Of a DNA stretch of 64,000 nucleotides, positions 58,798 through 62,258 are shown one piece after another. Location: assembly GCA_017419165.1 (NCBI GenBank), contig JAFOLW010000071.1:1-64000 (forward strand), in the 5' to 3' direction. The notes under the pieces were generated by a model, which was not told the origin of the DNA, ran no database searches, and worked only from the letters and a program-made list of their open reading frames with translations. Position 1 is the first letter of the stretch; each line of letters starts with the position of its first letter. This stretch comes from Erysipelotrichaceae bacterium (GTDB taxonomy: Bacteria; Bacillota_I; Bacilli_A; Erysipelotrichales; Erysipelotrichaceae). Made by a program: the position numbers and the translations under genes.

Positions 58798-58817
58798 GAC
58801 TTTACAGTCCTATTTTT
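58791..58817. terminator. Bidirectional terminator between S66 and threonine aldolase genes
   Basis: AAAATAGGAC, loop TTTACA, GTCCTATTTT with A and T runs; stop codons of both genes are within or next to the stem. Confidence 0.85.
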
Positions 58818-59853
58818 AATCTTCATTGACATACATGACCAGGTCATTGTAGAAGTCCTGGATCGCCGCTTTTTGCGTCGCCCAGGAACAGACGAAGCGC
58901 ACGATGGTGTGGTCTTTGTCATACGGTCCCCATTCGGTGACGGTATAGTTGGACTTGATCTTCTCCAAGACCCGGTTTTCCAGGATCGGGAAGATCTGGT
59001 TGGTCGAAGAGTCGATGTACATCGGGATGGAAAACTGCCGGAAGATGTATTTGAGTGCCTGCGCCATGATGTCGGCATTCCTTGCGTTGTCCAGATACGC
59101 TCTGGCTTTGTCCCGGAACAAGGCGATGAACTGAACGCCGATCAGCCGTCCTTTCGCCAGCATCGAACAGTGCTGCTTGATCAGATAGCGGAAATCCGGT
59201 TTGAGTTCGTCGTTTTTGATGACCAGCGCCTCACCCAGCCAGGCACCGTTTTTCGTACCGCCGATATAGAAGATGTCCGTCAGATCGCAGATGTCCTTGA
59301 AGCTGAGGTCGTTGCCGGTCGCGACTAAGGCATTGCCCAGTCTTGCGCCGTCGAGATAGAGATAAAGGCCGTATTCTTTGCAGACTTCCGAGATCGCAGT
59401 CAGTTCTTTCTTGGTATATATGGTGCCCAGTTCCGTCGCATCGGAGATGAAGACCATCTTCGGTCTGACTTTGTGTTCATCGGTATGATCGGCCATGACG
59501 TCCCTGATCTCCTGCGGGAGGATCTTTCCGTTTTTCCCTTTGACGGCGATGATCTTGTGTCCGGTCGCTTCCACGGCACCGGTCTCATGGGCGTTGATAT
59601 GCCCGGATTCACAGGAGATGACGGCTTCATGTGCCCGCAGTGTCGAGATCGCCAGGACATTGCAAGGTGTTCCGCCTGTGATGAAATGGACATCGACATC
59701 ATCGTGTTCGATGACCTGTTTGATCAGATCGGCAGCCGCCAGACTGTACTCGTCGACCCCATAGCCGGCGGATTGGACATCGTTGGTCTCGATCAAAGCT
59801 TTCAGTACTTTGGGGCAGGCGCCTTCGGAGTAATCGTTCGCAAATGAATACAT
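58816..59853 (-). CDS. Low-specificity threonine aldolase-type PLP enzyme
   Basis: This 345-residue protein is of PLP fold type I, beta-eliminating lyase group. It has the opening FANDYSEGACPKVLKAL, VHFITGGTPCNVLA, SDATELGTIYTKKEL, YLDGARLGNAL with the PLP Asp, and the PLP lysine in YIGGTKNGAWLGEA. It should split L-threonine or allo-threonine into glycine and acetaldehyde. It lies 16 bases downstream of the CRP-like gene on the same strand, so the two may share a transcript; ribosome site AAGGAAC. Confidence 0.9.
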   Translation of the reverse strand: MYSFANDYSEGACPKVLKALIETNDVQSAGYGVDEYSLAAADLIKQVIEHDDVDVHFITGGTPCNVLAISTLRAHEAVISCESGHINAHETGAVEATGHKIIAVKGKNGKILPQEIRDVMADHTDEHKVRPKMVFISDATELGTIYTKKELTAISEVCKEYGLYLYLDGARLGNALVATGNDLSFKDICDLTDIFYIGGTKNGAWLGEALVIKNDELKPDFRYLIKQHCSMLAKGRLIGVQFIALFRDKARAYLDNARNADIMAQALKYIFRQFSIPMYIDSSTNQIFPILENRVLEKIKSNYTVTEWGPYDKDHTIVRFVCSWATQKAAIQDFYNDLVMYVNED

Positions 59854-59869: not shown

Positions 59870-60451
59870 CTATATCAGTCGGATAACATCATCTTCTTTG
59901 ATTATACGCTTTTCTTTTGTTAACTTGCTTAACAAGCGGGACAAAGTCTCCCGGGAGAGAAAAAGCTGCTTTGACAAAGCGGAGACGGAAGTGAAGCGGA
60001 TGCGGCCGGAATGTTCATGCAGATAGTAGAACAGTCTCTCCTGTGCGGAATCGATCGACAAAAGACGGATCTGAAAATGAAGATCTTTTCCGGCATCGGA
60101 CTGTATCTTGAGATACTCTTTTAGAAACAGCGGGTCGTCACTCATCAGTCCGAGCAGTTCTTCTTCCCTGATCAGCAGCACTTCGCTGTTTTCTGCAGCC
60201 AGGACATCGCCTTTGTAGAACGGATCCGAGGAAAACAGCAGGTTATTTCCGAACATATCGTTTTGTTCCAGCGTGTTGTAGATGATCTGTGTCCCGTTCT
60301 CAAGAAATGAGGTGATGATCAAAGAACCGTGAAGGACGATGCCGATCTCACGGCACCGTTGACCTTCGCGAAACAGGACTTCATTTTTCTGAAGTTTCTT
60401 TGCGGTCAGTTCTTTTTTCTCTTTTTCACTCAGATATGTCAGCAGTTTCAT
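59870..60451 (-). CDS. CRP/FNR-family transcription regulator
   Basis: This 193-residue protein has an N-terminal cyclic-nucleotide-type beta barrel (about 18-105, VLFREGQRCREIGIVLHGSL) and a C-terminal helix-turn-helix. The recognition helix reads SRETLSRLLSKL with R167, E168 and R172 in the places of Arg180, Glu181 and Arg185 of E. coli CRP, which read TGTGA. There is a single cysteine, so it is not an iron-sulfur FNR. A TGTGA-N6-TCACA site lies 5 bases upstream of its ATG. Ligand is unknown: the barrel lacks a clear cAMP-binding RER motif. Confidence 0.9.
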   Translation of the reverse strand: MKLLTYLSEKEKKELTAKKLQKNEVLFREGQRCREIGIVLHGSLIITSFLENGTQIIYNTLEQNDMFGNNLLFSSDPFYKGDVLAAENSEVLLIREEELLGLMSDDPLFLKEYLKIQSDAGKDLHFQIRLLSIDSAQERLFYYLHEHSGRIRFTSVSALSKQLFLSRETLSRLLSKLTKEKRIIKEDDVIRLI

Positions 60452-60455
60452 AATG

Positions 60456-60471
60456 TGTGATCCAAATCACA
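60456..60471. promoter_or_regulatory. CRP-type operator between regulator and ABC genes
   Basis: TGTGA, TCCAAA, TCACA is a perfect CRP-type half-site pair. Its centre (60463.5) is 41.5 bases before the expected start (about 60505) of the ABC transcript, the class II activator position. For the regulator gene it is in the leader, so it can also repress it. Confidence 0.8.
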
Positions 60472-60486
60472 TATTTTCCTGTTTTT

Positions 60487-60498
60487 ATTATATATAAT
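60487..60498. promoter_or_regulatory. Shared palindromic -10 of divergent regulator and ABC promoters
   Basis: ATTATATATAAT is a perfect palindrome holding TATAAT on both strands (minus 60487-60492, plus 60493-60498). No -35 box is seen on the plus side, which fits activator dependence. Confidence 0.65.
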
Positions 60499-60520
60499 AT
60501 TCATCTGTGAGGTAAATGAA

Positions 60521-61513
60521 ATGAAAAAGTTATTATTCGTATTATCCATCCTGCTTCTGCTTTGCGGCTGTGCCGCCGGCAAACAGGACGTTGCAGAAGT
60601 AAAAGAAGAACAGCCCGCGCAGGAAGAGACTGCAGTCGATCTTTCCGCTTTGACCATCGTCACCCCGAAAGGTGCTCCGGTCCTGGCTTTCTATGATCAG
60701 ATCGAAAATCCGAATTACAGCAGAGTCACGGCAGATGCCATCTCCGCACTTTGGACGGGCGATGCTTCTCCGGATGTCCTGGTCGTCGATCTGACCAGCG
60801 GCATCAAAGCGATCAAAAACGGTGCCGGCTACAAACTCGGTGCCATCATAACATTCGGCAATTTCTATCTCGCTTCCACCGGCAACGATGAAAACGATAC
60901 GATGGATGCCGACGACAAGATCGTGCTGTTCGGCAATGAGAACATGCTTCCGAACAAGCTCTGGCATTATCTTTACGGGGAAGACTATGATGCATCTTTA
61001 CTGTATGCGGCAGATGCGCAGCAGGCAGCAGCGGCTCTGGCCAGCGGCAATTTCTCCGACGGAACGGCCGTCGATTACGTTTTCCTGGCTCAGCCGGCAC
61101 TCTTCGCTTCTTTGAGCAAGAATGAGAAGGCGAAAGTCTTTGCCGACATCCAGGAAGAATACAAGAACAAGTCCTCGCTCGACATGATCCAGGCAGCCGT
61201 CTTCATCAAAGATAGTGTCGACGCCAAGACCGGTGCGGCATTCCTGGATCAGTTAAGTGCCTCGATCGCTTCGGCGATCGCCGATCCGGAACTTGTCCAG
61301 TCCGGCTTAGGCCTCTATTCGGGCGATGAAGCGGTAGCTCAGTATGGCTTCAACCCGAACGTCGTCGTCAATGTCTTCAAACAGAAGAACGCTTTGGGCA
61401 ACAATGCGATGGGTCTGGGCTTTGCCAGAGCGATCGACATCAAGACGGATATCGACGCTTTCCTTTCGATCTTCGGAATCGATGCAACAGGTGAAGAGAT
61501 CTATTTCCAATAA
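60521..61513 (+). CDS. ABC transporter substrate-binding lipoprotein (NitT/TauT-like)
   Basis: This 330-residue protein has a lipoprotein signal ending LLLCGC and a two-lobe binding-protein body, LTIVTPKGAPVLAFYDQI, then VLVVDLTSGIKAIKNG and AIITFGNFYLAST. The fold style is that of nitrate/sulfonate/thiamine-precursor binding proteins (SsuA/NMT1-like), whose permease type follows directly. The ligand is unknown. It is transcribed from the CRP-type promoter and its stop is overlapped by the permease gene by 32 bases. Confidence 0.8.
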   Translation: MKKLLFVLSILLLLCGCAAGKQDVAEVKEEQPAQEETAVDLSALTIVTPKGAPVLAFYDQIENPNYSRVTADAISALWTGDASPDVLVVDLTSGIKAIKNGAGYKLGAIITFGNFYLASTGNDENDTMDADDKIVLFGNENMLPNKLWHYLYGEDYDASLLYAADAQQAAAALASGNFSDGTAVDYVFLAQPALFASLSKNEKAKVFADIQEEYKNKSSLDMIQAAVFIKDSVDAKTGAAFLDQLSASIASAIADPELVQSGLGLYSGDEAVAQYGFNPNVVVNVFKQKNALGNNAMGLGFARAIDIKTDIDAFLSIFGIDATGEEIYFQ

Positions 61514-62258
61514 GAAGATCTGTTATATCGCAGGGATCCTGATACTTGTCACGCTGTGGCAAGTTTTCTCATTGTGGATCGGCCAGGATACGATGGTCTT
61601 TCCCGGTCCTGTCTCCACTTTGAGGCATGCCTTCTATCTTTTGAGCAGGGCTTATACCTATAAGTGCATCCTGGCAACGATGTTGAGGATGCTGACGGGT
61701 TTCCTGATCTCCTTGATCCTGGGCCTTCTTTTGGGCATTCCGGCGGGGAATGACGAGAGGATAAGCTTACTGCTGCAGCCGTTCATCGTCGCGTTGAGAG
61801 CGGTCCCGACGGCGTCCTTGGTCTATCTGTTCATCGTGCTGGCGGGTTTTCGCAAGGCACCGGTATATCTGGTCATCCTGATCGGTTTCCCGATCATTTA
61901 CGAAGGAGTGAAGACCGGCATCGCCAATATCGACAAAGCATTGATCCATGCGGCATGGCTCGACGGGGCATCCTTTCTCAAGGAGAACACCCGTGTCCGT
62001 CTGCCGCTGGCACTTCCTTACATCTTCTCTGCGGCTGCTTCCGCATTTTCCCTGTCGTTCAAGATCGAGATCATGGCGGAGGTCATCACCGGTGCATCTG
62101 ACGCGGGGCTGGGTTCGGCGATCCTGGGTGTCCGTTCGTCCGATCCGACCAACATGGTCCCGGTCTTCGCATATTCGGTCATCGCCGTGGCTTTGATGAT
62201 CTTCATCGATCACATCAGTTCAAGGATACGGGAGAAAACGTCTTCACTTGGTTTATAA
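61482..62258 (+). CDS. ABC transporter permease (SsuC/TauC-like)
   Basis: I place the start at ATG 61482 (258 residues), within the end of the binding-protein gene; GTG 61491 is an alternative. The protein has about six membrane helices and the EAA docking loop HAAWLDGASFLKENTRVRLPLALP with conserved Gly. The final helices match the SsuC/TauC group. No ATPase gene adjoins, so it must use an ATPase encoded elsewhere. Its TAA overlaps the ATG of the next gene. Confidence 0.85.
   Translation: MQQVKRSISNKKICYIAGILILVTLWQVFSLWIGQDTMVFPGPVSTLRHAFYLLSRAYTYKCILATMLRMLTGFLISLILGLLLGIPAGNDERISLLLQPFIVALRAVPTASLVYLFIVLAGFRKAPVYLVILIGFPIIYEGVKTGIANIDKALIHAAWLDGASFLKENTRVRLPLALPYIFSAAASAFSLSFKIEIMAEVITGASDAGLGSAILGVRSSDPTNMVPVFAYSVIAVALMIFIDHISSRIREKTSSLGL

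Follow-up and report, generated by a model that had tools for sequence, protein, structure and literature searches.

The gap between two divergent genes in the window (the whole 64,000-nucleotide stretch of Erysipelotrichaceae DNA that was analyzed) contains a CRP-type operator. Comparison of related loci demonstrates this site, its exact spacing from the downstream −10 element, its pairing with the adjacent regulator gene and the specificity code that joins the two. The reading that we consider likely for the locus as a whole is a local class II activator, which would switch on a lipoprotein and permease gene pair and limit its own synthesis. Activation, autorepression and control by a ligand other than cAMP are the parts of this reading that we infer. 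The interval 60449–60523 is the gap between the regulator gene (minus strand) and the lipoprotein gene (plus strand), and the locus is arranged as follows.

58816–59853, minus strand: PLP enzyme, threonine-aldolase-like, with a beta-eliminating lyase fold; the next gene downstream of the regulator gene
59870–60451, minus strand: regulator of the Crp/Fnr superfamily, 193 aa; start codon 60451–60449
60456–60471, no strand: operator TGTGATCCAAATCACA, a CRP-type inverted repeat with N6, seen in the sequence and conserved in the gap of about 60 loci
60486–60499, both strands: 14-bp palindrome TATTATATATAATA, formed by the two TATAAT elements below
60487–60492, minus strand: TATAAT, candidate −10 of a putative regulator promoter; predicted +1 at about 60480
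60493–60498, plus strand: TATAAT, −10 for the lipoprotein and permease genes, giving a predicted +1 at 60505
60507–60512, plus strand: Shine-Dalgarno-like GTGAGG of the lipoprotein gene, seen in the sequence
60521–61513, plus strand: substrate-binding lipoprotein, NitT/TauT-like, 330 aa, ATG at 60521; likely target of activation
61482–62258, plus strand: ABC permease (BPD_transp_1), with a putative start codon; its gene overlaps that of the lipoprotein

Operator and promoter geometry

The first-pass annotation of this DNA, made from the letters alone, had pointed to a TGTGA-N6-TCACA repeat in the gap. It is present as TGTGATCCAAATCACA, without a mismatch, and is the sole perfect copy in the window. 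Matches with at most one mismatch are at chance level (two in the window, 2.1 by chance), so the motif statistics by themselves prove little and were kept out of the evidence. The same annotation had proposed a search of the genome, and this gave four perfect copies in the 1.79-Mb draft, TGTGATCCAAATCACA included; the others lie within coding regions or at their ends, or are Rex-like. A Rex-like operator, TTGTGAATTTTATCACAA, is found at L003:1500–1517 (C38:5442–5459 of the organism's own genome), immediately upstream of a gene for an iron-type alcohol dehydrogenase. The degenerate site YGTGAYNNNAATCACA occurs once, without mismatch, in this 73% complete genome, which argues for a local switch rather than a global CRP. 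Across the genus an exact YGTGAYNNNAATCACA is usually found once per genome, and that copy is usually the one in the divergent gap. A global CRP regulon was rejected on the single exact YGTGAYNNNAATCACA and on the genic, gene-end or Rex-like nature of the other perfect repeats. With a draft genome that is 73% complete, the conclusions on the regulon, and those on the ATPase given below, are provisional.

The center of the operator falls between 60463 and 60464, which is −41.5 relative to the predicted start at 60505, a position set seven bases past the −10 from that element alone. A TTGACA-like −35 for the lipoprotein promoter is absent at every usual spacing checked, and its absence is conserved, like the operator–regulator pairing and the −41.5 geometry, in dozens of divergent genomes. 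Fifty-nine loci were aligned on the operator, and in 56 of them a −10 with at least five of the six consensus bases stands at the identical offset; the most that any one offset gathered in 1000 shuffles was 11 loci. The aligned loci are related and not independent, and the bases around the elements have diverged while the spacing is unchanged. Both the −41.5 placement and the missing −35 had been claimed before, and both held. CRP sites at class II promoters usually overlap the −35 and have their center at −41.5 (PMC2859248). The present site, near −41.5 and in the place of a −35 (as predicted from the −10, and in 56 of 59 loci), has the layout of this class.

The regulator and its pairing with the operator

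The analysis covered 61 distinct regulator loci of the class Bacilli, in the genus and in more distant families, and every one has a CRP-type inverted repeat in its divergent gap, although several of these regulators are only about 30% identical in sequence. Arginine is invariant at CRP positions 180 and 185 among the 61 regulators. The residue at position 181 follows the operator: every one of the 37 (T/C)GTGA loci has glutamate, and each of the 24 (T/C)GTAA loci has proline (23) or glutamine (1). Set against the fourth base of the operator, the residue thus gives E/G 37 times, P/A 23 times and Q/A once, with zero exceptions; at L155, the locus with glutamine, one half-site of the pair reads TGTCA. 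When the recognition-helix columns were left out of the regulator tree, at least two changes of residue 181 were seen on it, each accompanied by a switch of the operator; two independent co-switches are too few for a sign test. The specificity code itself is not new, since the same rule was published for HcpR2 by Rodionov and colleagues in 2005, where the change of E181 to proline goes with GTAACnnnnGTTAC (PMC1274295).

Loss of the two parts is likewise joint. One genome of the same genus (G060) has lost both the regulator and the operator, and its lipoprotein gene stands directly after rsmI. In other genera this gene directly follows thrS and often overlaps its end by four bases, an arrangement that leaves no room for an operator. 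These patterns make it very probable that the neighboring regulator binds the operator at 60456–60471.

The regulator protein has the architecture expected of its superfamily. Its barrel matches the cNMP-binding family PF00027 (60.7 bits, cut-off 27.5), in agreement with the fold model. The Pfam match to HTH_Crp_2 is below threshold (20.4, cut-off 27), and a winged helix-turn-helix whose CRP-like recognition helix spans residues 167–179 was recognized by alignment and by the fold model. The sequence S-R-E-T-L-S-R at 166–172 aligns with CRP 179–185 and keeps R180, E181 and R185, bearing out the R-E-x-x-x-R helix that had been noticed from the translation. The remark that the barrel lacks the usual cAMP contacts was also correct, as all five differ: E72, R82, S83, T127 and S128 of CRP are replaced by N, Y, K, L and H, the first three being N69, Y79 and K80 of the regulator. 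The family keeps instead the motifs F-G-N-N-L-x-F-S and Y-K/R-G. A cAMP-dependent CRP was rejected on the replaced contacts and on a score of 24.4 bits against the cut-off of 266 for the CRP model of NCBIfam. It is unlikely that cAMP is the ligand, and the regulator would be under the control of another one.

The nearest solved relatives by sequence include HcpR of P. gingivalis (9day) and the Crp-family protein 1o5l of T. maritima. In Foldseek many Crp/Fnr structures rank together, HcpR 9day having the top TM-score among the matches listed. A function as HcpR was rejected, for the Prismane (PF03063) hcp gene was found in none of the 36 genus genomes (36/36 without it). The combination that defines HcpR2, proline at CRP position 181 with GTAACnnnnGTTAC, is seen in the 23 proline members of a distant branch; the window regulator has glutamate with TGTGA. 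An FNR-type [4Fe-4S] sensor was rejected as well, for the N-terminal cysteine cluster is absent and C33 (codon 60353–60355) is the only cysteine. This residue is kept in 97% of the glutamate branch and 88% of the proline branch, and is a candidate sensor or ligand residue.

Proposed circuit and alternatives

We propose that the regulator encoded at 59870–60451 is a dedicated, single-locus activator of the Crp/Fnr type. Its dimer would contact 60456–60471 through Arg167, Glu168 and Arg172 (CRP R180, E181 and R185), stand in for the absent −35 and recruit RNA polymerase to TATAAT at 60493–60498. Recruitment would be class II-like, as for CRP, and would switch on the lipoprotein and permease genes. 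The same bound dimer would cover the start region of the regulator transcript, whose probable −10 is the other half of the symmetric element, and would so limit synthesis of the regulator. The PLP enzyme gene at 58816–59853 is probably part of that transcript. On comparative grounds, activation is well supported by the conserved pairing, the −41.5 geometry and the missing −35, by the co-variation of helix and operator and by their joint loss; with good confidence, we read the lipoprotein and permease genes as class II targets of the regulator.

The evidence on the regulator side has a different character. As had been stated, the site belongs to the leader of the regulator gene itself, where it occupies the bases 5–20 upstream of the ATG, and a minus-strand start at about 60480 would put it at +10 to +25 of the transcript. 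Across loci the operator is usually at or just after the predicted start of the regulator, which is consistent with autorepression. Its exact position is variable, and both the candidate −10 and the distance to the start codon differ among loci. The geometry on this side is thus not conserved and does not pin autorepression down by position; we regard autorepression as plausible and modestly favored. The asymmetric precision of the two sides is what one expects if the site activates one gene, which calls for precision, and represses the other, which tolerates variation. When a promoter is symmetric, activation in one direction can by itself repress the other through polymerase competition (PMC12825309), and this can be an alternative route to apparent autorepression. 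The single circuit that the first-pass annotation had suggested therefore is well supported in its activating half, and its autorepressing half is consistent with the data and weaker.

We weighed the possibility that the regulator represses both divergent genes, the −41.5 spacing then reflecting interference with RNA polymerase. Many local Crp/Fnr-type proteins can act as repressors, and the operator closely precedes the −10 of one gene and closely follows that of the other. Yet a pure repressor site needs no one-base precision, whereas 56 of 59 loci preserve the exact distance to the lipoprotein −10, along with the lack of a −35, and a promoter that lacks a −35 would be weak unless activated. 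Repression on both sides is in our judgment unlikely, and activation of the lipoprotein and permease genes is the preferred reading.

The site might also serve a different regulator, for instance Rex or a global CRP, in which case the neighboring gene would be incidental. TGTGA-N6-TCACA does resemble CRP sites, its core is common to Rex operators (TTGTGAA-N4-TTCACAA), and the genome has the Rex-like site before the alcohol dehydrogenase gene. The flanks of the operator, however, are conserved as ATGTGA/TCACAT and do not have the outer TT/AA of Rex sites, and the remaining perfect sites of the genome are genic, at gene ends or Rex-like. The operator base moreover follows the helix residue of the neighbor through two switches, and the two are lost jointly, all of which makes service to another regulator very improbable. 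That the palindrome is a functionless product of chance would accord with the chance-level count of one-mismatch matches in the window, but its place, spacing and sequence are conserved in about 60 loci; the comparative data already contradict this idea, whose probability we put at next to nothing.

The controlled gene pair and known systems

The lipoprotein is called NitT/TauT-like from weak matches of its relatives only. Its predicted model is of low confidence (pLDDT 58), and a sequence search of the PDB was without match. The best NCBIfam model for the permease is SaoP, at 89.8 bits and far below the cut-off of 295; the SaoP/SAO system (PMC13188914) was rejected on this score, and no selenoprotein partners were seen. 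An ABC importer is recognized by a binding protein, a permease and an ATPase together, and the first two only are found here; in some genus members there is no permease gene after the lipoprotein gene either. None of the module loci inspected has an ABC ATPase gene adjacent to the pair. A search of the genome with TIGR01184 gave many ABC ATPases, the top ones mostly long sugar-type frames, and no clear partner; an unlinked ATPase may be encoded elsewhere in the genome. The earlier designation of an ABC transporter and transcript is right as to the lipoprotein and permease and needs qualifying, since no ATPase gene is beside them.

In sister genera (L098, L099, L100, L101, L103 and L115) the orthologue of the binding-protein gene is thrS-linked under a T-box leader. 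Control of orthologous genes by T-box and thrS in one place and by a Crp-type regulator in another is a regulatory swap. A dinitrogenase FeMo-cofactor-type protein (PF02579) is encoded after the thrS-linked binding-protein gene at L101:6857–7276, and a small protein similar to it follows the binding-protein gene in L103. Genes of the [FeFe]-hydrogenase or NuoE/NuoF type adjoin the module of regulator, lipoprotein and permease in L169, L172, L177, L180 and L181, in several families of Bacilli. Judged from gene context, the thrS/T-box linkage, the threonine-aldolase-like neighbor and the hydrogenase neighbors may point to the function of the transporter and do not settle it. Tentatively, and with more doubt than conviction, we picture a new Bacilli subfamily of Crp/Fnr regulators with a non-cAMP ligand, dedicated to an ATPase-less pair (thrS/T-box-coupled in the sister genera) that serves a threonine- or hydrogenase-linked need and shares an ATPase encoded elsewhere.

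The locus supplies a computationally well supported regulator–operator pair for a lineage with almost no experimental data on regulation. The natural switch from Glu to Pro and from G to A can be tested by single substitutions, and the swap between T-box/thrS and Crp-type control offers a handle on both the cargo of the transporter and the signal of the regulator. The regulator subfamily, its target and its distribution appear to be new, no description having been found in a limited literature search.

Several known systems share parts of this arrangement. The binding lipoprotein and BPD_transp_1 permease are like those of NitT/TauT-type ABC importers, but the window locus has no ATPase gene. 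The palindromic −10 that faces both ways resembles the symmetric bidirectional promoters of Warman and colleagues (PMC12825309), which were shown in E. coli at other promoters, whereas in the present case bidirectionality is only predicted, and perfect −10 symmetry is confined to part of the genus. HcpR2 and HcpR1 belong to the same superfamily, and the HcpR2 code of Pro with GTAACnnnnGTTAC recurs between the branches compared here; unlike them, the genus has no hcp, the target is a lipoprotein and permease pair, and the window branch keeps Glu with TGTGA. The closest parallel in layout is class II activation by E. coli CRP, with TGTGA-N6-TCACA centered at −41.5, no −35 and an R-E-x-x-x-R helix, although the window regulator, at 193 aa, lacks the cAMP contacts and has one target locus. 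The circuit type, the geometry and the specificity code are thus already known, and the arrangement is of a textbook kind, found here in a lineage that had not been studied.
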